A stretch of 64,000 nucleotides of DNA from Psychrobacillus sp. FSL K6-4046 (GTDB taxonomy: Bacteria > Bacillota > Bacilli > Bacillales_A > Planococcaceae). Position numbers and translations under genes: made by a program. Shown piece after piece: positions 981 to 46,817 of the stretch. The notes under the pieces are model-generated. The model was not told where the DNA came from. It saw only the letters and a list, made by a program, of their open reading frames with translations, and made no database searches. Location of the stretch: contig NZ_CP152020.1 in assembly GCF_038624605.1 (NCBI RefSeq), forward strand, positions 248,001 through 312,000. Reading direction: 5' to 3'. Within the stretch, counting starts at the first letter, position 1. Each line of letters starts with the position of its first letter.

Positions 981-1190
981 ATGAAAGTTGCATTAATTGG
1001 TGACAGCTTAACTGAGGGACGACCTGGCGTTTCGTTTGTAAATATTTTAAAAGAGAAGTTTCCGAGCGATTCGTTTGTGAATCTTGGAAAACCAGGGGAG
1101 ACTGTAAAAAGTCTATATAGTCGTCTGATAAAAACTGGTTTAGATGCTGATTTTGATGGGTCATTTGGGAATGTAAAATATTTTGTGTAA
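981..1190 (+). pseudogene. SGNH/GDSL-family hydrolase, 5' fragment (split by IS256-family insertion)
   Basis: The fragment begins MKVALIGDSLTEGRPG, the block I GDS-L motif with the nucleophile Ser of SGNH esterases/lipases. It is preceded by a good ribosome site (AAAAGGGG, just before ATG 981). Native sequence ends at 1166 after ...DADFDGSF; the last eight codons (GNVKYFV and stop) are read from the IS end. Removing the IS and one target copy joins this in frame to the fragment at 2671-3183. The joined protein would be about 232 residues, normal for the family. The interrupted protein lacks the Asn and His blocks and should be inactive. Confidence 0.85.
1159..1166. repeat. Left target-site duplication of the IS256-family element
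   Basis: GGTCATTT directly abuts the left end of the element and is repeated exactly at 2663-2670. Eight to nine bp is the usual duplication length for IS256-family elements. Confidence 0.9.
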
Positions 1191-2662
1191 ATGTATTACT
1201 ATCTTTATTCTAAACACATACTTACTTTATCCGTTAAGGGGATAAGGCTCTGCTGAAGAGCAACCTGAGCACTTAACCGATGGCCAAAAAGGAGAGGGTT
1301 TTTCTCTCTCTTTTTCTTATCTTTTTGGTCTAAATAAAGCGTAAAACTTTTGGGTGTAGCGTAGCGGAGCCCAACACGACTGTACATGAACAAGGGATAA
1401 TCCTACTAAATCCGCCCCTCAAAAATAATTTTGAATTGTCCCTCACACTCTAGCCATCCTGGAATAGGCTTATTCCATTTTTTTATGGCATCCATCGTGG
1501 CCAAATAAAGAATCTTCTTTAGTGAATTGTCCGTAGGATAGGCTGTTTTTGTCTTTGTTACCTTTCTCAGTTGGCGATGGAATCCTTCCACTGTATTGGT
1601 CGTATAAATGATTTTCCGTATCTCCGTCGGGTAGGAAAAGTAAGCTGTAAGCTCCAACCAATGTTCCTCCCAAGAACCAATAACCTTCGGATATTTATCT
1701 TTCCATGATGCCTTTACTTTTCCAAACTCAAGTTCAGCTTGCTCCAAAGTAGAAGCCTTGTATACCTTCTTTAAATCGGTCATAAACGGGTTTCGTTCCC
1801 TTGAAGGCACATACTTCATGGTATTTCGTAATTGATGGATCACACACAACTGAATATGCGTCTTTGGAAAGGTGCTCTGGATCGCTTCTGTAAAGCCAGA
1901 AAGTCCGTCCTTACACGCAATAAAGATATCTTCTACACCACGACTTTTAAGGTCTGTACAGACACCTAGCCAAAAGCTCGCGCTTTCATTTTCACCTACC
2001 CATATACCAAGGATATCCTTAATTCCATCGGAATTAATGCCGAGAACAGTATAAGCAGCTTTATTAATAATACGGTTCTCGTGCTTCACCTTGAAGTGGA
2101 CCGCATCCAAATAAACAATTGGATACACACGGTCTAAAGGGCGGGAGTGCCATTCGAAAATCTGAGGTAAAATTTTATCTGTTACCTTACTAACCAAGCT
2201 AGGAGATACTTCGACACCATATATATCTTTCATATGTGACTCGATATCTCTTGTGGACATTCCTTTGGAATACAAAGCTAAAATCTGTTCTTCTAAGCCA
2301 TTGATGGACGACTCGTAATTCTTCACGATTTGCGGTTCATATTCACCATTGCGGTCTCTAGGTATATTTAATTCTGTATTTCCAAACTTTGTTCGAATCA
2401 CCTTTGAACGATAGCCATTTCTACTGTTTCCGGTATTATTTCCTGTCGGGCTATGTTTGGAGTAGCCAAGGTGGTCTTCGATTTCGGCCTCAAATACAAG
2501 CTGTAATGTTTCTTTAAAAAGATTTTTCATCATCTCGATGATGTCATCAACAGATTGACACTCTCTAGCTAAATCCTTGATTCTCATATTTTCGTAATTT
2601 TGCATAATGATCATCTCCTATAGGAAAGTTATGGTCATTTACACAAAATTTTATACGTTCTC
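1167..2662. mobile_element. Complete IS256-family insertion sequence (about 1.5 kb)
   Basis: The ends are 27-bp imperfect inverted repeats (1167-1193 and 2636-2662, four mismatches), sharing a TTTTGTGTAAATG core. They are flanked by exact 8-bp duplications. One transposase gene lies on the minus strand. The roughly 210 bp between the left repeat and the transposase stop is non-coding or holds only weak reading frames. The element looks intact and recently inserted, because the duplication and the host gene reading frame are both preserved. Confidence 0.93.
1406..2605 (-). CDS. IS256-family (mutator-type) transposase
   Basis: About 399 residues, normal length for the family. The DDE residues are visible, numbered from the longer upstream start: Asp170 in YLDAVHFK, Asp236 in CKDGLSGF and Glu343 in TTNTVEGFHRQLRK. 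The protein cuts and joins the IS ends through a circular or figure-eight intermediate, as known for the family. The start at 2605 was chosen because the AGGAGA ribosome site overlaps the upstream ATG at 2614 but sits 9 bases before this one. No frameshift or stop is seen, so the gene appears active. Confidence 0.93.
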   Translation of the reverse strand: MQNYENMRIKDLARECQSVDDIIEMMKNLFKETLQLVFEAEIEDHLGYSKHSPTGNNTGNSRNGYRSKVIRTKFGNTELNIPRDRNGEYEPQIVKNYESSINGLEEQILALYSKGMSTRDIESHMKDIYGVEVSPSLVSKVTDKILPQIFEWHSRPLDRVYPIVYLDAVHFKVKHENRIINKAAYTVLGINSDGIKDILGIWVGENESASFWLGVCTDLKSRGVEDIFIACKDGLSGFTEAIQSTFPKTHIQLCVIHQLRNTMKYVPSRERNPFMTDLKKVYKASTLEQAELEFGKVKASWKDKYPKVIGSWEEHWLELTAYFSYPTEIRKIIYTTNTVEGFHRQLRKVTKTKTAYPTDNSLKKILYLATMDAIKKWNKPIPGWLECEGQFKIIFEGRI

Positions 2663-6519: not shown

Positions 6520-6709
6520 TTTGCAGGCTCCTTTATAAATTTTTATATGATGCATTTTTGGAATAAAAGTTATCCCTTAAATAATTATCCTAAAATACTG
6601 AATATATGAAGTCAAATGATAGCTCTTCCCAAACTGTCACCTTTCAAGAAAAATCGTAATAGTATAAGCTGATAAGAATTATTATGAAGCATCATTTAGG
6701 AGAGTGCCT

Positions 6710-8143
6710 ATGCCTGCTATTACAGGAAAACAATATATAGATCGGATAGATCAGTTGAACTCGGAAATTTGGGTTGACGGAAAAAGAGTAACGGGGAAGA
6801 TCTCCGAACACCCCGCTTTCAAAGGGGTCATGAAGAGCCAAGCAGCATTATTTGATATGCAGCATGACCCAAATTTAAAAGATATATTAACCTATCCTTC
6901 TCCAACTACTGGAGATTCTGTTGGGCTTTCTTTTCTAGAACCAAAAACAAAAGAAGATTTAGTGAAAAAAAGGATGATGGTTCAGGAATGGGCTCGAGCG
7001 ACCAATGGTCTAATGGGAAGAAGTCCAGATTATATGAATACAACTTTAATGGCTTATGCGTCTTCCGCAAAATTACTGGAAGGTAAAAATAGCTGTTTTC
7101 CTCAGTATCTCCAATCTTACTTTGAATATGTACGAGAAAATGATTTAACTTTAACTCACAGTTTCATTGAGCCACAGGTAAATCGAACTTTCTACTATTT
7201 AGAAGATGAAAAAGAACCAATTGCAGCTAAGGTCATCGGTGAAAATGAGGAAGGAATTATTATAAAGGGTGCTCGTCTGCTTGCAACGCAAGGAGGTATG
7301 ACGGATGAAATATTAGTATACTCCATGGGACCAATTATAGATGAAGGGAAGGGCTATTTTTTCTCTATCCCAAGTAACACGAAGGGCGTAAAATTTATAT
7401 GTCGGGAGTCATTAGTTGGAGGAGATTCTTCCTTTAATTATCCGCTGAGCTCCAAATATGATGAAATGGATACCATTGTGGTTTTTGATGATGCGGTAGT
7501 CCCGTGGGACCGTGTATTTATTTATGATGACCCAATGACGGCCAATGATTTTATGATTAGTAGCTCCTTCCAACCGTTCACCCTACACCAGGTAATATCT
7601 AGACAGATTGTTAAAACTGAATTTGTCTTAGGAATTGTCCAGTCTATTATTAAAACTATTAATATAGCAGAATACCAGCATGTTCAGGAAAAGGCGGCAG
7701 AGGTAATTGTAGCATTAGAATCTTTAAAAGCGTTGTTAATGAAATCAGAGATAGATGCGAAAATAAATCGATTTGGTTTAATGGAGCCAGATAGAGCTAC
7801 ATTGCATGCTGCTATCACTGTTTATCCGAAGGTCTACCCAAGACTAGCGGAAATCGTACAGTTATTAGGTGCTAGTGGTTTAATGACCATTCCAACAGAA
7901 AATGATTTTAACTCACCGATTAGAAGGGACCTCGACCAATACTTGCAGGCAAAGGCAGCCCCAGCTGAAGAACGTGTAAAGCTATTCCGCCTTGCTTGGG
8001 ATCTTACGATGAGTCCCTTCGGAACAAGACAAACCATTTATGAGCGTTTTTTCTTTGGAGATCCAATTCGCGTAGCAAGCCAGCTCTACTTTGCCTATGA
8101 TAAAGAGCCTTATGTTCAACGTATTAAAGATATATTGAAGTGA
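6710..8143 (+). CDS. HpaB-family flavin-dependent hydroxylase (4-hydroxyphenylacetate 3-monooxygenase large component-like)
   Basis: 477 residues, the usual length for the HpaB/PvcC/4-hydroxybutyryl-CoA dehydratase superfamily. An acyl-CoA-dehydrogenase-like fold is suggested by segments such as GRSPDYMN near the N-terminus, ATQGGMTDE mid-protein and FDDAVVPWDRVF. Known members use FADH2 supplied by a separate HpaC-type reductase to ortho-hydroxylate phenols. No reductase gene is next to it, so a partner must lie elsewhere. The ATG at 6710 is preferred over GTG 6704, which overlaps the AGGAG site. The true substrate may not be 4-hydroxyphenylacetate. Confidence 0.85.
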   Translation: MPAITGKQYIDRIDQLNSEIWVDGKRVTGKISEHPAFKGVMKSQAALFDMQHDPNLKDILTYPSPTTGDSVGLSFLEPKTKEDLVKKRMMVQEWARATNGLMGRSPDYMNTTLMAYASSAKLLEGKNSCFPQYLQSYFEYVRENDLTLTHSFIEPQVNRTFYYLEDEKEPIAAKVIGENEEGIIIKGARLLATQGGMTDEILVYSMGPIIDEGKGYFFSIPSNTKGVKFICRESLVGGDSSFNYPLSSKYDEMDTIVVFDDAVVPWDRVFIYDDPMTANDFMISSSFQPFTLHQVISRQIVKTEFVLGIVQSIIKTINIAEYQHVQEKAAEVIVALESLKALLMKSEIDAKINRFGLMEPDRATLHAAITVYPKVYPRLAEIVQLLGASGLMTIPTENDFNSPIRRDLDQYLQAKAAPAEERVKLFRLAWDLTMSPFGTRQTIYERFFFGDPIRVASQLYFAYDKEPYVQRIKDILK

Positions 8144-8192: not shown

Positions 8193-8311
8193 GAATCGGT
8201 CGGTTATGGTGCATAATAGGTCGGTCCAGTGAGAAAATCGGTCGGTCGCCGCGAATAATCGGTCGGTTCGCACAGAAAACCGGTCGGTTCAGGCAAATAA
8301 TCGGTCGGTTC
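8193..8311. repeat. Array of six 21-bp-period TCGGTCGGT repeats (array 1)
   Basis: Core copies start at 8196, 8217, 8238, 8259, 8280 and 8301, exactly 21 bp apart. Cores are TCGGTCGGT in four copies, TAGGTCGGT and CCGGTCGGT in the others. The 12-bp spacers vary but end A-rich (AATAA, GAAAA). Because 21 is divisible by 3, the minus strand reads as an open frame with a repeating NRPI-like heptad. It lies between convergent gene ends, just before a terminator. A second six-copy array of the same design is at 45.0 kb. Confidence 0.9.
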
Positions 8312-8331
8312 CACTCACTCATCACATAATT

Positions 8332-8365
8332 AAGGCAAGGATGCTTATTTCTGCATCCTTGCCTT
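8332..8365. terminator. Rho-independent terminator between hpaB-like gene and 2-hydroxyacid oxidase gene
   Basis: A perfect 13-bp stem, AAGGCAAGGATGC / GCATCCTTGCCTT, with a short loop and a T-rich right flank. It is probably shared by the convergent genes. Confidence 0.9.
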
Positions 8366-8371
8366 TTCTCT

Positions 8372-9496
8372 TTATTTCTTTCTTCTAATAAGCGATGAAT
8401 TAACCTCGTTCATCGATGCACAACCAGATAATGCTAAAGTAACATCAATATCATTAATCATGTTACGTAATACATGTTCTACTCCTTGCTCGCCGGCAGT
8501 GGCCAAACCATAGATAAAAGGTCTGCCAAGTAAAACTACATCTGCCCCAAGAGCCTTTGCTTTAATGACATCAGAGCCCCGTCTGATACCACTATCCAAT
8601 AACACTGGAATATTCCCCTGAATAACTTCCGCGACGGAGGGGAGTGCCTCTAATGACGAAATACAGCCATCCAGCTGCCTTCCTCCATGATTGGAGACTA
8701 TAATTCCATCGACTCCGTGGAGTAAAGCTTTTCTTGCATCTTCCTCATGAAGGATGCCTTTCAGTAAAATGGGAAGCTTCGTATGCTCCTTAATGGTTTT
8801 AAGATTTTCCCAGGTTAATGAAGGATTAAAGATAATATCAACAATACTTTTAATGACCTCCGGATCGTCAGCGGAAGGGGGGCTAGTAAATCGACCTTGA
8901 AAGACAGGGTCGTATAAGTAGTTAGCAGCCCCTTTTCCCAGTTTTAAAGGAGAATAGCGATTGTTCAAATCACGCTCTCTATTTCCAAGAAGGGAGGTGT
9001 CAATCGTAATGACGATAGCAGAATAACCTGCTTTTTCTGCGCGACGAACCATACTTATCGCCATTTCCTCATCATTGGACCAATACAACTGATACCAGCG
9101 AGGGGTGTCTCCTAGATTAGCGGCAATTTCCTCTAAAGGATAAGAGGATAATGTACTAGCTATAAAAGGGACTCCACATGCTGCAGCAGCACGTGCGGAA
9201 GCCAGTTCACCTTCAGGATGGAAAATACTTTGAACCCCGATTGGTGCTAGTGCAAAAGAGGAAGGGAAGGTAGTTCCCAGCAAAGTAGTGGAGGTGTCTC
9301 GACTGCTCACATCATTTAAATATTGAGGGACGATACACCAATCCTCAAAGGCTGCCTCATTGGCACGAAGGGTGCTTTCATTACCAGCACCACTATGGAC
9401 GTATGTAAACGGTCCTTTTTCAATAGATTTAGAGGCCAATTCTTCTAAAAGAGAAATTGAATGTGGTAACTCCAGCTGTGAAATAGAACGGGTCAT
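8372..9496 (-). CDS. FMN-dependent alpha-hydroxy-acid oxidizing protein (lactate oxidase/2-monooxygenase family)
   Basis: 374 residues with the FMN-dependent 2-hydroxyacid dehydrogenase TIM barrel. Visible landmarks are WYQLYWS, VITIDT, the catalytic-His segment SNHGGRQLDG, and DSGIRRGSDVIKAKALGA followed by GRPFIYG. The family oxidises an L-2-hydroxy acid (lactate, glycolate, mandelate) to the 2-keto acid, or oxidatively decarboxylates it. The start has an ideal AAGGAGG site. It lies 19 bp after livF on the same strand, making it the last gene of the liv-type operon. The imported solute may therefore be, or yield, a 2-hydroxy acid. Confidence 0.9.
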   Translation of the reverse strand: MTRSISQLELPHSISLLEELASKSIEKGPFTYVHSGAGNESTLRANEAAFEDWCIVPQYLNDVSSRDTSTTLLGTTFPSSFALAPIGVQSIFHPEGELASARAAAACGVPFIASTLSSYPLEEIAANLGDTPRWYQLYWSNDEEMAISMVRRAEKAGYSAIVITIDTSLLGNRERDLNNRYSPLKLGKGAANYLYDPVFQGRFTSPPSADDPEVIKSIVDIIFNPSLTWENLKTIKEHTKLPILLKGILHEEDARKALLHGVDGIIVSNHGGRQLDGCISSLEALPSVAEVIQGNIPVLLDSGIRRGSDVIKAKALGADVVLLGRPFIYGLATAGEQGVEHVLRNMINDIDVTLALSGCASMNEVNSSLIRRKK

Positions 9497-29682: not shown

Positions 29683-29747
29683 AGAGAGATAATAGTGTGG
29701 TAGCTCAAGGGTGGTTGGTTCACTCCCGTTAGAGAGGGGGTGGTGCC

Positions 29748-29831
29748 TTGTCAGTATTCGAAGCATTGATGTTTGCGGTAGCATTTGCAACATTGGTCGT
29801 TGTAATATTGTCGTTTAACCATAAAAAATAA
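29748..29831 (+). CDS. Holin-like type I toxin peptide (TxpA/Hol-Tox family), 27 aa
   Basis: The peptide is MSVFEALMFAVAFATLVVVI followed by LSFNHKK. It is a single hydrophobic helix starting with the (S/T)-x-x-E-A-L-M signature of the Firmicute holin-like toxin family (TxpA, BsrG and relatives), with a basic tail. The start is TTG after a purine-rich GAGAGGGGGTGG site. It should insert in the cell membrane and depolarise it. Its stop codon lies inside the terminator of the antisense RNA, the family arrangement for RNA antitoxin control. Confidence 0.85.
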   Translation: MSVFEALMFAVAFATLVVVILSFNHKK

Positions 29832-29959
29832 CCCATCCTTGAGTTGAGAGCTCAGATGGGTTAATCCTAATGAAAGCCAATCCCCTTTGGGACCAACTAT
29901 TACAATGGACTGGTTGATGCACTAACATCAATCAGTCTTTTTTAATGTACGCAGTTGTT
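29822..29959 (-). ncRNA. Antisense antitoxin RNA of the type I toxin-antitoxin locus
   Basis: A minus-strand RNA of about 138 bases is predicted to begin about 7 bases after the -10 at 29966-29971. It should end at the hairpin 29829-29863 (TAACCCATC / GATGGGTTA arms plus an inner TGAG/CTCA), which is followed on that strand by TTTTTT. It would pair with the whole 3' part of the toxin mRNA, as RatA does with txpA and SR4 with bsrG. Ends are predictions from promoter and terminator. Confidence 0.75.
29908..29943 (+). terminator. Terminator of the toxin mRNA
   Basis: A 12-bp stem GACTGGTTGATG / CATCAATCAGTC (one G-U) has a 6-base loop, then TTTTTT. It lies inside the antisense RNA gene, so the two RNAs overlap tail to tail. 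Confidence 0.85.
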
Positions 29960-44704: not shown

Positions 44705-44797
44705 TGGAGGAGGAAGAGGGATTCGAACCCCCGCGCGGTATGACCCGCCTGTCGGTTTTCAAGACCGATCCCTTCAGCCGAACTTGGGTATTCCTCC
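44705..44797 (-). tRNA. tRNA-Ser (anticodon TGA)
   Basis: 93 nt including encoded CCA. It is a class II tRNA with a long variable arm. The acceptor is GGAGGA... and the anticodon loop CTTGAAA. It is the first gene transcribed in the five-tRNA cluster. Confidence 0.95.
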
Positions 44798-45018: not shown

Positions 45019-45136
45019 AATCGGTCGGTTTTCGACGGAAATCGGTCGGTCAGCACAAATAATCGGACGGTTCTGGTCAATAATCGGTCGGTCGGCACAA
45101 ATATGCGGTCGGTTTCAGACAATAATCGGACGGTCC
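45019..45136. repeat. Array of six 21-bp-period TCGGTCGGT repeats (array 2)
   Basis: Core copies start at 45021, 45042, 45063, 45084, 45105 and 45126, exactly 21 bp apart. Cores are TCGGTCGGT in three copies, TCGGACGGT in two and GCGGTCGGT in one. Spacers are 12 bp and A-rich at their right end (CACAAATAA, CAATAA). The plus strand reads as an IGRS/IGRF heptad, but there is no ribosome site. It lies between the tRNA promoter and yqhH. It matches array 1 in core, period, copy number and orientation on the plus strand. Confidence 0.9.
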
Positions 45137-45230: not shown

Positions 45231-45284
45231 ACACCTCACATTTGGGCAATCTAAGAAAAATGATTTGCTGTGAGGTGTTTTTTT
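45231..45284 (+). promoter_or_regulatory. Terminator-like hairpin that sequesters the yqhH ribosome site
   Basis: A perfect 10-bp stem ACACCTCACA / TGTGAGGTGT has a 28-base loop and is followed by T-run (45278-45284) ending at the ATG. The GAGGTG ribosome site lies inside the right arm. If transcription starts upstream, this would act as an intrinsic terminator, or hide the ribosome site. Confidence 0.65.
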
Positions 45285-46817
45285 ATGTTGATTGAAAGAT
45301 CGTCTTCCTGGAAGGAAGGCTTTACAAAAAGATTAGAAAATGAAGAGCCATGGGATAATTGGAATCTTTATAATATGAGTTATGACATAGTAAAAAATAA
45401 TTTGATTACAGAGTTTACGGGACTTCAGTCTCCAAAGTATTTACCAAATCTTCAAGCATTAAACCACCAATTAGAGGTTGCTCGGACAGTGATCGAGCGG
45501 ATGAATGGAAAGGCAATCTTAGCGGATGAGGTAGGTCTTGGTAAAACGATTGAAGCAGGCTTGATATTAAAAGAGTATATGGTGCGAGGACTAGTAAAAA
45601 AAGCTTTGATACTTGCCCCTGCTTCCTTGATTAATCAATGGGTGGAGGAAATGAATTTTAAATTTCATATACCTGCCATTCCATACAAAAAGAGTTACTC
45701 CCTTGACCACAATGACATTGTCATCATGAGCATGGATACAGCTAAAAAAAGTCCGCATAAAGAGCTTATATATGCTCAAAATTATGACATGATCATCATT
45801 GATGAGGCACATAAGCTGAAAAACCATAAAACGAAAATATATGAATTCGTCCAGGGGTTGAAAAAGAAATTCTGCTTGTTGTTAACAGCTACACCTGTTC
45901 AAAATGATGTATTTGAATTATTCTATCTTGTTTCTTTATTGAAGCCAGGTCATTTGGGTAATTACGAGACATTTCAGGAGTCGTTTTCTGCAAGTAAGCA
46001 TAGCTTAGAGCATGATGAGTATTTAAGAGAGCTCGTCAATCAGGTAATGGTAAGAAATAGAAGGCAGGATACTGGGATTGAGTGGACAACTCGTCAGGTG
46101 AAAATCATTCCAATTGAATTTACGAAAGAGGAAAAGGAAGTCTATGAAATGATTTCTGATTTAAAAAATATTTCCTCCGTCTTTTCTGGTGCTTTTTCTA
46201 TGATTACACTTCAAAAAGAAATGTGTAGCAGCAAGGAAGCAACTTGTTTGACGCTTAACAACATGGTTGAAAAGTGTACGAATCAAGAAGAAATTACTTA
46301 TGTACAAAACTTGATGGAAAAGCTCATGTCTTTAGAGGTAAACTCGAAGGCGGAGAAGGCTTACGAGATTATTGCTGAGGCAGATGACAAGGTCATTATT
46401 TTTACAGAATATCGTGCAAGCCAAATTTATCTGCAATGGTATTTAAGTACAAAAGGAATTACGAGCGTTTTATTCAACGGGAAGTTCAATAAGAACAAGC
46501 GTGATTGGATGAAGCACTTGTTCAAGGAGCAGGCACAGGTGTTAATAGCTACTGAATCGGGTGGAGAAGGGATTAACCTTCAGTTTTGTCACCATGTAAT
46601 TAACTACGATCTTCCGTGGAACCCGATGAAGCTGGAGCAACGAATAGGGCGTGTCCATAGGTTAGGGCAGGAGCATGATGTCCATATTTATAATTTAGCT
46701 ATTCAGGAAACTATTGAGCAGCATATTCTAGATCTGCTGTACACGAAAATCGATGTATTTGAAAAAGTAGTCGGTGAACTGGACGATATATTAACGACCT
46801 ATAAAAAAACAATATAG
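45285..46817 (+). CDS. yqhH: SNF2-family helicase YqhH
   Basis: 510 residues from ATG 45285. It is a compact Swi2/Snf2 ATPase: ILADEVGLGKTIEAGLIL (Walker A), LAPASLINQW, MIIIDEAHKLKN (DEAH), LLTATPVQND, and the C-domain IFTEYRASQIYLQWYL, ATESGGEGINLQFCHHVINYDLPWNP and QRIGRVHRLGQ. Length and pairing with yqhG match the Bacillus YqhH protein. Its role is unknown; it probably remodels nucleic-acid-protein complexes. In B. subtilis it is next to the glycine cleavage genes; here it is not. Confidence 0.9.
   Translation: MLIERSSSWKEGFTKRLENEEPWDNWNLYNMSYDIVKNNLITEFTGLQSPKYLPNLQALNHQLEVARTVIERMNGKAILADEVGLGKTIEAGLILKEYMVRGLVKKALILAPASLINQWVEEMNFKFHIPAIPYKKSYSLDHNDIVIMSMDTAKKSPHKELIYAQNYDMIIIDEAHKLKNHKTKIYEFVQGLKKKFCLLLTATPVQNDVFELFYLVSLLKPGHLGNYETFQESFSASKHSLEHDEYLRELVNQVMVRNRRQDTGIEWTTRQVKIIPIEFTKEEKEVYEMISDLKNISSVFSGAFSMITLQKEMCSSKEATCLTLNNMVEKCTNQEEITYVQNLMEKLMSLEVNSKAEKAYEIIAEADDKVIIFTEYRASQIYLQWYLSTKGITSVLFNGKFNKNKRDWMKHLFKEQAQVLIATESGGEGINLQFCHHVINYDLPWNPMKLEQRIGRVHRLGQEHDVHIYNLAIQETIEQHILDLLYTKIDVFEKVVGELDDILTTYKKTI

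Follow-up and report, generated by a model that had tools for sequence, protein, structure and literature searches.

What keeps a short intergenic motif repeated at intervals of exactly 21 bp, with spacers that differ from copy to copy? This question is raised by two arrays in a window of 64,000 nucleotides, i.e., the whole stretch of DNA from Psychrobacillus sp. FSL K6-4046 that was analyzed. The initial annotation had described two arrays with six cores each at exact 21-bp intervals, and all ten core-to-core steps were indeed 21 bp (Table 1). The cores are of the AATCGGTCGGT type, and five of the twelve deviate at one or two positions (AATAGG, AACCGG, TCGGACGGT twice, and ATGCGG). Array 1 is situated between a gene of HpaB type and an FMN-dehydrogenase gene, which are convergent, and a terminator-like hairpin follows it, as had also been stated. 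Array 2 has a minus-strand tRNA on its left and a plus-strand SNF2 helicase gene on its right. Elsewhere in the window, Rfam detected a BsrG-type RNA (RF01412, 97.8 bits, positions 29689-29936, plus strand), which we take to be a toxin-antitoxin RNA.

Table 1. Positions of the two arrays, their neighbors and the insertion sequence copy in the window
Feature	Position	Strand	Remarks
Mutator-family insertion sequence copy	1167..2662	-	PF00872; lies in apparent coding sequence
Flanking gene of array 1, 4-hydroxyphenylacetate 3-hydroxylase type	6704..8143	+	PF11794, PF03241
F1 array 1	8194..8309	+	Cores at 8194, 8215, 8236, 8257, 8278, 8299
Terminator-like hairpin and T-rich run, after array 1	8332..8370		Read in the sequence
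Flanking gene of array 1, FMN-dependent dehydrogenase	8372..9496	-	PF01070
tRNA left of array 2	44708..44797	-	Rfam RF00005; nearest of five tRNA matches
F1 array 2	45019..45134	+	Cores at 45019, 45040, 45061, 45082, 45103, 45124
Flanking gene of array 2, SNF2-type helicase	45270..46817	+	PF00176, PF00271

A scan of the whole genome for the core repeated at 21 bp, which had been proposed as a check, revealed 36 exact matches of the two-core pattern and none of the reversed pattern; with up to three mismatches the numbers were 71 and 3. The arrays are thus not due to chance. The family, called F1 here, comprises 17 arrays with 3 to 7 units each and 89 units altogether, in agreement with the suspected dispersed repeat family. 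When named genomes were scanned, 26 stretches matched, and 16 of them are from Psychrobacillus sp. BL-248-WT-3, which belongs to the same species as the window's genome. The other ten were single-pair matches in unrelated taxa, namely eight actinobacteria (Lentzea, Saccharothrix, Pseudonocardia), one Tychonema, and one deltaproteobacterial MAG. No plasmid, phage or viral match was found for F1, array 1 being the query in the plasmid and phage search.

The F1 unit consists of a conserved 14-bp core, ATAATCGGTCGGTY, and about seven free bases. In 70 internal units the positions 20-21 and 1-12 were conserved, and the positions 13-19 were nearly uninformative. The internal spacers were mutually distinct in 68 of 70 cases, which bears out the earlier argument against a simple recent tandem duplication. 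Read directly, the core contains an imperfect dyad, AAtCGgtCGgTT.

The genomic context of the 17 arrays was inspected by eye. All except one are located downstream of at least one gene, eight are in convergent gaps, and one is between divergent transcripts. The share in convergent gaps was not above a background that is itself biased to array loci (p 0.36), and no rule was seen for the orientation of the 17 arrays relative to genes. Several arrays start directly past a terminator-like hairpin. The neighboring genes are unrelated and include odhB-, menA-, pgi-, hisA-, and trkH-like genes, names given by sequence resemblance except for the profile-matched genes of the window. Because F1 adjoins unrelated genes and is downstream of a gene in 16 of 17 cases, an operator for a single regulon does not fit. 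At two loci with similar flanks (by eye; L013:4327-5008 and L018:4950-5200) a compound element is present, in which CCCRTAAA or CACCTAAA units are followed by a terminator-like hairpin and then by an F1 array. In addition, a palindromic repeat like TTACAGGTGCCAGGCACCTGTAA occurs in intergenic DNA near arrays of both species (L014:480-570, L054, L076).

The arrays of the window's genome (G000) were compared with those of a second strain of the same species (G061). A partner of at least three units was found for 15 of the 17 arrays; for the other two the second strain has two-unit arrays only (C9:9867, C12:30817), which were left out of the comparison. Three arrays of the second strain had no partner; one of them continues an array that is cut in two by a contig boundary. 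The comparison was restricted to internal units of exactly 21 bp with no more than seven mismatches between partners, which left 61 unit pairs. Differences were found at 13 of 671 core sites (1.9%), at 118 of 2796 alignable near-flank sites (4.2%), and at 52 of 610 spacer sites (8.5%). Thus, the cores change less, and the spacers more, than the flanks. The frequency of changes was about 4.4-fold higher in spacers than in cores (p 1.3e-7 if unit pairs are taken as independent), and the 21-bp step was kept. The spacer changes were spread over the positions 13-19, and at most paired loci the spacers were mostly identical. At two loci, spacers and near flank were scrambled (15 of 50 spacer sites from five units at L016/L055, and 32 of 50 at L019/L069 with the terminal unit counted), and also in these cases the cores, the unit number and the step persisted.

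The helical phase was conserved as well. The flanks of 11 loci had 38 gap events per 128 substitutions, and from this ratio about 20 indels other than whole units were expected in the aligned arrays; only one was observed (p 1e-5, and p 0.003 without L019/L069). Core and phase were therefore under constraint between the two strains, as the proposed selection for phased protein binding had predicted. Whole units, in turn, were gained or lost between the strains at several loci. One clear pair of paralogous F1 arrays in the second strain was copied together with its flanks (L061/L070). The two members of this pair are surrounded by tandem and dispersed repeats (L061:1-800 and L070), which presumably resemble the tails of 5S rRNA genes. 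Elsewhere in this strain an F1 array has grown to at least 16 and 8 units with a 42-bp higher-order repeat, and the assembly is broken inside it (L051 and L044, identical in place to L064 and L068; ends of contigs C34 and C59).

The sister species (G001) is roughly 77-90% identical to the window's genome in most aligned blocks. Eleven of the 12 fetched loci were compared by eye: in seven, between one and three degraded units remain at the corresponding position, three contain no unit, and one was not comparable because its flank differs. The exact 12-base unit occurs 58 and 79 times in the two strains with F1, and 0 to 2 times in 17 other species of the genus, where the reversed pattern also gave 0 to 2. 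F1 is dispensable, the sister species holding at most decayed remnants. A period and copy number not conserved in relatives had been named as the sign of chance or local duplication. Copy number indeed differs between strains, and the sister species has remnants at most, whereas the pitch is found again with other cores both in the genus and in the family, as described below.

Two explanations of the 21-bp period itself were examined. The period equals seven codons and single arrays are open in a frame, as the initial annotation had noted with NRPI-like heptads, and the arrays could thus encode heptad-repeat peptides. A coding role was not supported: the best frame was open in 13 of 17 arrays and no frame in all of them, so the open reading frames look incidental. 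The spread of spacer changes over the positions 13-19 and steps of 19 and 22 bp in another family also speak against coding, which is largely refuted and scarcely credible. Intrinsic curvature found no support either. Calculated with wedge parameters, its mean z was 1.97 against base shuffles for the 17 arrays, although in any repeat of 21 bp the bends add up in phase. Against a column-permuted control, in which every unit had its columns shuffled alike, the mean z was 0.47 for 13 of the 17 F1 arrays and -0.23 for ten other arrays, and single arrays exceeded a z of 2 (L011 and one of L105).

F1 is not the only family of this kind. Arrays with the core CCCRTAAA were found with 112 pairs in the window's genome, 100 in the second strain, 23 in G011, 19 in G005, 4 in G009, and 0 to 2 in the remaining genomes of the genus. 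The core TTACKACAAT had 101 pairs in the window's genome, 85 in the second strain and 87 in the sister species; beyond the window's genome, these were the only two with this family among 200 genomes sampled from the taxonomic family. Additional cores in the two strains are CACCTAAA, GCAAGGTT, GCAACACTT, and GGTGATAAA. With up to two mismatches allowed, AGCAACYRATT was found in nine other species of the genus, in seven of them with 9 to 282 pairs and in two with a single pair each; the other ten genomes, both F1 strains included, have none. Under the same threshold TCTATCCRTC, a core of another genus that was met in the lag scan described below, was present in 26 of the 31 sampled genomes of that genus with up to 605 pairs and no reversed-pattern match. 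Three of these families (CCCRTAAA, TTACKACAAT, TCTATCCRTC) are looser than F1, in that their steps are not always 21 bp and higher-order periods of 82 to 105 bp are present; individual steps of 19 and 22 bp were seen in one family other than F1, and higher-order repeats of 42 bp and 103 bp occur among the arrays. The occurrence of several cores, each in some of the species, together with the F1 remnants fits one putative protein per core that is gained and lost.

Arrays with the core GGTGATAAA in the window's genome (L228:12458, L225:5974) and one with the core GGTCATAAA in the sister species (L196:968) had suggested a concerted core change between the species, which is unsupported, as 633 kb of the window's genome hold four CGGTGATAAA and four CGGTCATAAA. 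Seven viral stretches with TTACKACAAT pairs were set aside; by eye they are mostly unrelated tandem or coding repeats.

The pitch was also analyzed independently of any core, by local self-match at lags of 12 to 31 in stretches that had been chosen by coordinates; open frames of at least 110 codons were masked and AT-rich matches removed. In 38 stretches (760 kb) of genus relatives six matches were found at lag 21 and four at all other lags, and 35 stretches (665 kb) of other genera of the family gave three and two, respectively. In the own genome (20 stretches and the window, 464 kb) there were six matches at lag 21, the window's own array included, and one other. Lag 21 was the sole outstanding lag of the 20 tested, with 9 of 15 matches in the relatives and 6 of 7 in the own genome. 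One of the family matches is from three G018 stretches that were added after the first G018 stretch had shown an array; the G011 stretches L101 and L102, chosen for their CCCRTAAA arrays, were excluded from the counts. In 25 stretches (459 kb) of other families of the class no match was found at any lag, and with only 51 kb of unmasked DNA outside open frames this sample is too small to settle the limits of the 21-bp pitch. A looser first scan had given 13 segments at lag 21, nine at lag 24, nine at lag 42, and seven at lag 11, and 8, 4, 7, and 4 segments, respectively, at an AT content below 0.72. The lag-21 match at L122 was lost under strict masking, and that at L136 was excluded, because its heptad array looks like a coiled-coil coding sequence. 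A 41/42-bp repeat of CCGCAACTCTCAAGG type in another family (G038, L148:17457-17600) may be a further array of this type, beyond the limits of the family.

A mobile element turned out to distinguish the arrays from the rest of the genome. It is an insertion sequence of 1497 bp with a mutator-family transposase (PF00872, 1e-109), which we take to belong to the IS256 family. At least six copies are present in the window's genome (19 of 28 candidates scored), and five of the six found are inside arrays of about 21 bp, i.e., one in an F1, one in a TTACKACAAT, and three in CCCRTAAA arrays. Array DNA, for which the use of one repeat finder yields a lower bound, makes up 0.56% of the sampled genome and 4.3% of the DNA outside open frames, and at 4.3% the chance of five in six is 8.5e-7. 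In the second strain at least 19 end fragments of the element are present, as 19 of 46 candidates were scored, and one more lies at the end of contig C43. Eighteen of the 19 fragments whose flanks were read are in or beside arrays. The best lag was 21 or 22 for 14 of the 19; at L203, L205, L208, and L213 lag 21 was tied or second, and the array was called by eye on a repeated CACCTAAA motif. The best lag alone is a weak measure, as one flank of the window's copy also gives 21 with a low match. A fragment on C28, the flanks of which are outside the 19, abuts a CCCRTAAA array by coordinates. Five fragment pairs have a duplicated target in common, so that the number of events in this strain is 10 to 15.

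At L206 of the second strain the element seems to lie in the coding sequence that also harbors the window's copy. From the sequence, one gene, the start of which reads MKVALIGDSLTEGRPG, appears to have been hit at different places in the two strains, so the two copies look like independent insertions. In 17 other species of the genus no match to the element was found among the 14 to 19 candidates scored for each. Since several of these species have arrays, it is unlikely that the insertion sequence makes the arrays.

The most probable reading of these results, to which we assign a probability of roughly 55%, is that the arrays are predicted binding sites, lined up for proteins on the same side of the helix, with cores that change fast. 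A core and phase that are kept at many unrelated loci, while the spacers drift, are the signature of double-stranded DNA sites for proteins that face one side. Each array would offer recognition sites two helical turns apart, and copies of a putative sequence-specific DNA-binding protein would sit side by side on one helix face, possibly in a cooperative manner. The putative F1 binder is probably a dimer, because the core is an imperfect dyad. Several systems of this type would coexist in the genome, each with its own core but with about the same pitch, which makes an architectural role at gene ends likeliest, such as the shaping or anchoring of the chromosome by a nucleoprotein patch. The cores may turn over between species at many loci, each tracking a changing or exchangeable protein, and loss of the protein would let the arrays decay, as may have happened in the sister species. 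The target of the insertion sequence would then be the bound, phased patch and not the letters of the core. Against phased sites stand the gain and loss of whole units between strains, as in any minisatellite, the dispensability of F1 in the sister species, the looser steps of some other families, a mean curvature that does not exceed the column-permuted control, and the lack of an orientation rule by eye.

Among the alternatives, neutral or selfish minisatellites deserve the most attention, although we regard them as a doubtful explanation. Slippage or unequal exchange on protein-wrapped DNA would favor duplications of two turns, which would have no host function and would spread by copying with their flanks. 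The turnover of whole units between strains, the higher-order repeats of 42 bp and 103 bp, the array pair copied with its flanks, and the patchy occurrence among species are all explained in this way. What minisatellites do not predict is the conservation of the core beside randomized spacers and the shortage of indels that break the phase. An RNA-level role is improbable, in which transcription of the upstream gene would run on through the arrays and the core would act in the transcript, i.e., in 3' end processing, stability or termination. The position of 16 of the 17 F1 arrays downstream of a gene would agree with this, as would the plus-strand RNA core AAUCGGUCGGUU, which, read directly, is self-complementary with G-U pairs. 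However, the folding of the two window arrays was unremarkable (z -1.50 and -1.13 for the plus strand, -0.01 and +1.99 for the minus strand), several arrays start just past a terminator-like hairpin, the strand is inconsistent, the pitch resembles that of B-DNA, and an Rfam match at the arrays is absent.

The preference of the insertion sequence, five of six copies and 18 of 19 fragments in or beside array DNA that makes up 0.56% or 4.3%, could also mean that the arrays are chiefly safe targets that divert insertion sequences from genes. As selection for such a landing pad would be weak, and several of the 17 species in which the candidates scored gave no match to the element have arrays nevertheless, this is quite improbable. 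A system like CRISPR or TIGR, with the arrays as sources of short guides, is very improbable, even though a fixed repeat, a variable spacer and a fixed spacer length would suit it: guides of the CRISPR type need spacers longer than the 7 to 10 bp found here, the 17 loci are dispersed beside unrelated genes, and the spacers are mostly identical between the strains at most paired loci.

The two-turn pitch is a physical constant that recurs across genera while the sequence varies. With core and phase measurably constrained and an insertion sequence that discriminates arrays, the role of dispersed repeats becomes testable, and the arrays hint at an unrecognized set of putative chromosome-bound proteins. 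More speculatively, they could represent a family-wide class of satellite-like chromosomal patches, with dozens of intergenic arrays per genome as rows of sites for putative architectural proteins at two-turn pitch. Cores and proteins would turn over quickly, as in an arms race or drive, the pitch would be kept, and transposons would home on the nucleoprotein and not on the letters.

Several known systems share features with the arrays. Plasmid iterons are direct repeats of about two turns that are bound in phase by an initiator protein, and in-phase direct repeats of this length are also found in F1. Iterons sit at the origin beside the initiator gene, whereas F1 is chromosomal, occupies 17 dispersed loci, and has no replication gene recognized alongside by eye; unlike iterons, array 1 also gave no match in plasmids and phages. 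CRISPR arrays have repeats and spacers of roughly 20 bp or more each and cas genes, in contrast to the F1 spacers of 7-10 bp, and by eye no cas genes were recognized beside the 17 F1 arrays. REPs are palindromic stem-loop units. F1 differs from REP/BIME elements in being a direct array at 21-bp pitch, the core of which is only an imperfect dyad, and the RNA folds of the two window arrays (z -1.5 to +2.0) do not indicate stem-loops. Both are dispersed, extragenic, and clustered. REPs, like the arrays, are also targets of insertion sequences (PMC1525189).

Apart from the STAR elements of Staphylococcus, no description of such arrays was found among the literature matches listed, in which subscription journals are thinly covered, so that absence from print is unproven. 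The STAR elements of S. aureus (Purves et al. 2012, PMC3532100) are the closest in kind. They differ from F1 in having one GC-rich core, T(G/A/T)TGTTG(G/T)GGCCC(C/A), in contrast to ATAATCGGTCGGTY, spacers of 40-44 bp at the described locus and not about seven free bases in a 21-bp unit, mostly single motifs per locus and not 3-7 units at exact two-turn pitch, and no locus common to species, whereas F1 has remnants at orthologous loci of the sister species (PMC3532100). Several cores per genome and the targeting by an insertion sequence likewise set the Psychrobacillus arrays apart from STAR as described there (PMC3532100). Both are interspersed intergenic direct repeats with a 14-bp core and variable spacers, the spacers are locus-specific and stable within a lineage while the copy number varies between strains, and both are uneven among related species and have no function assigned, which for STAR still applied in 2012 (PMC3532100).
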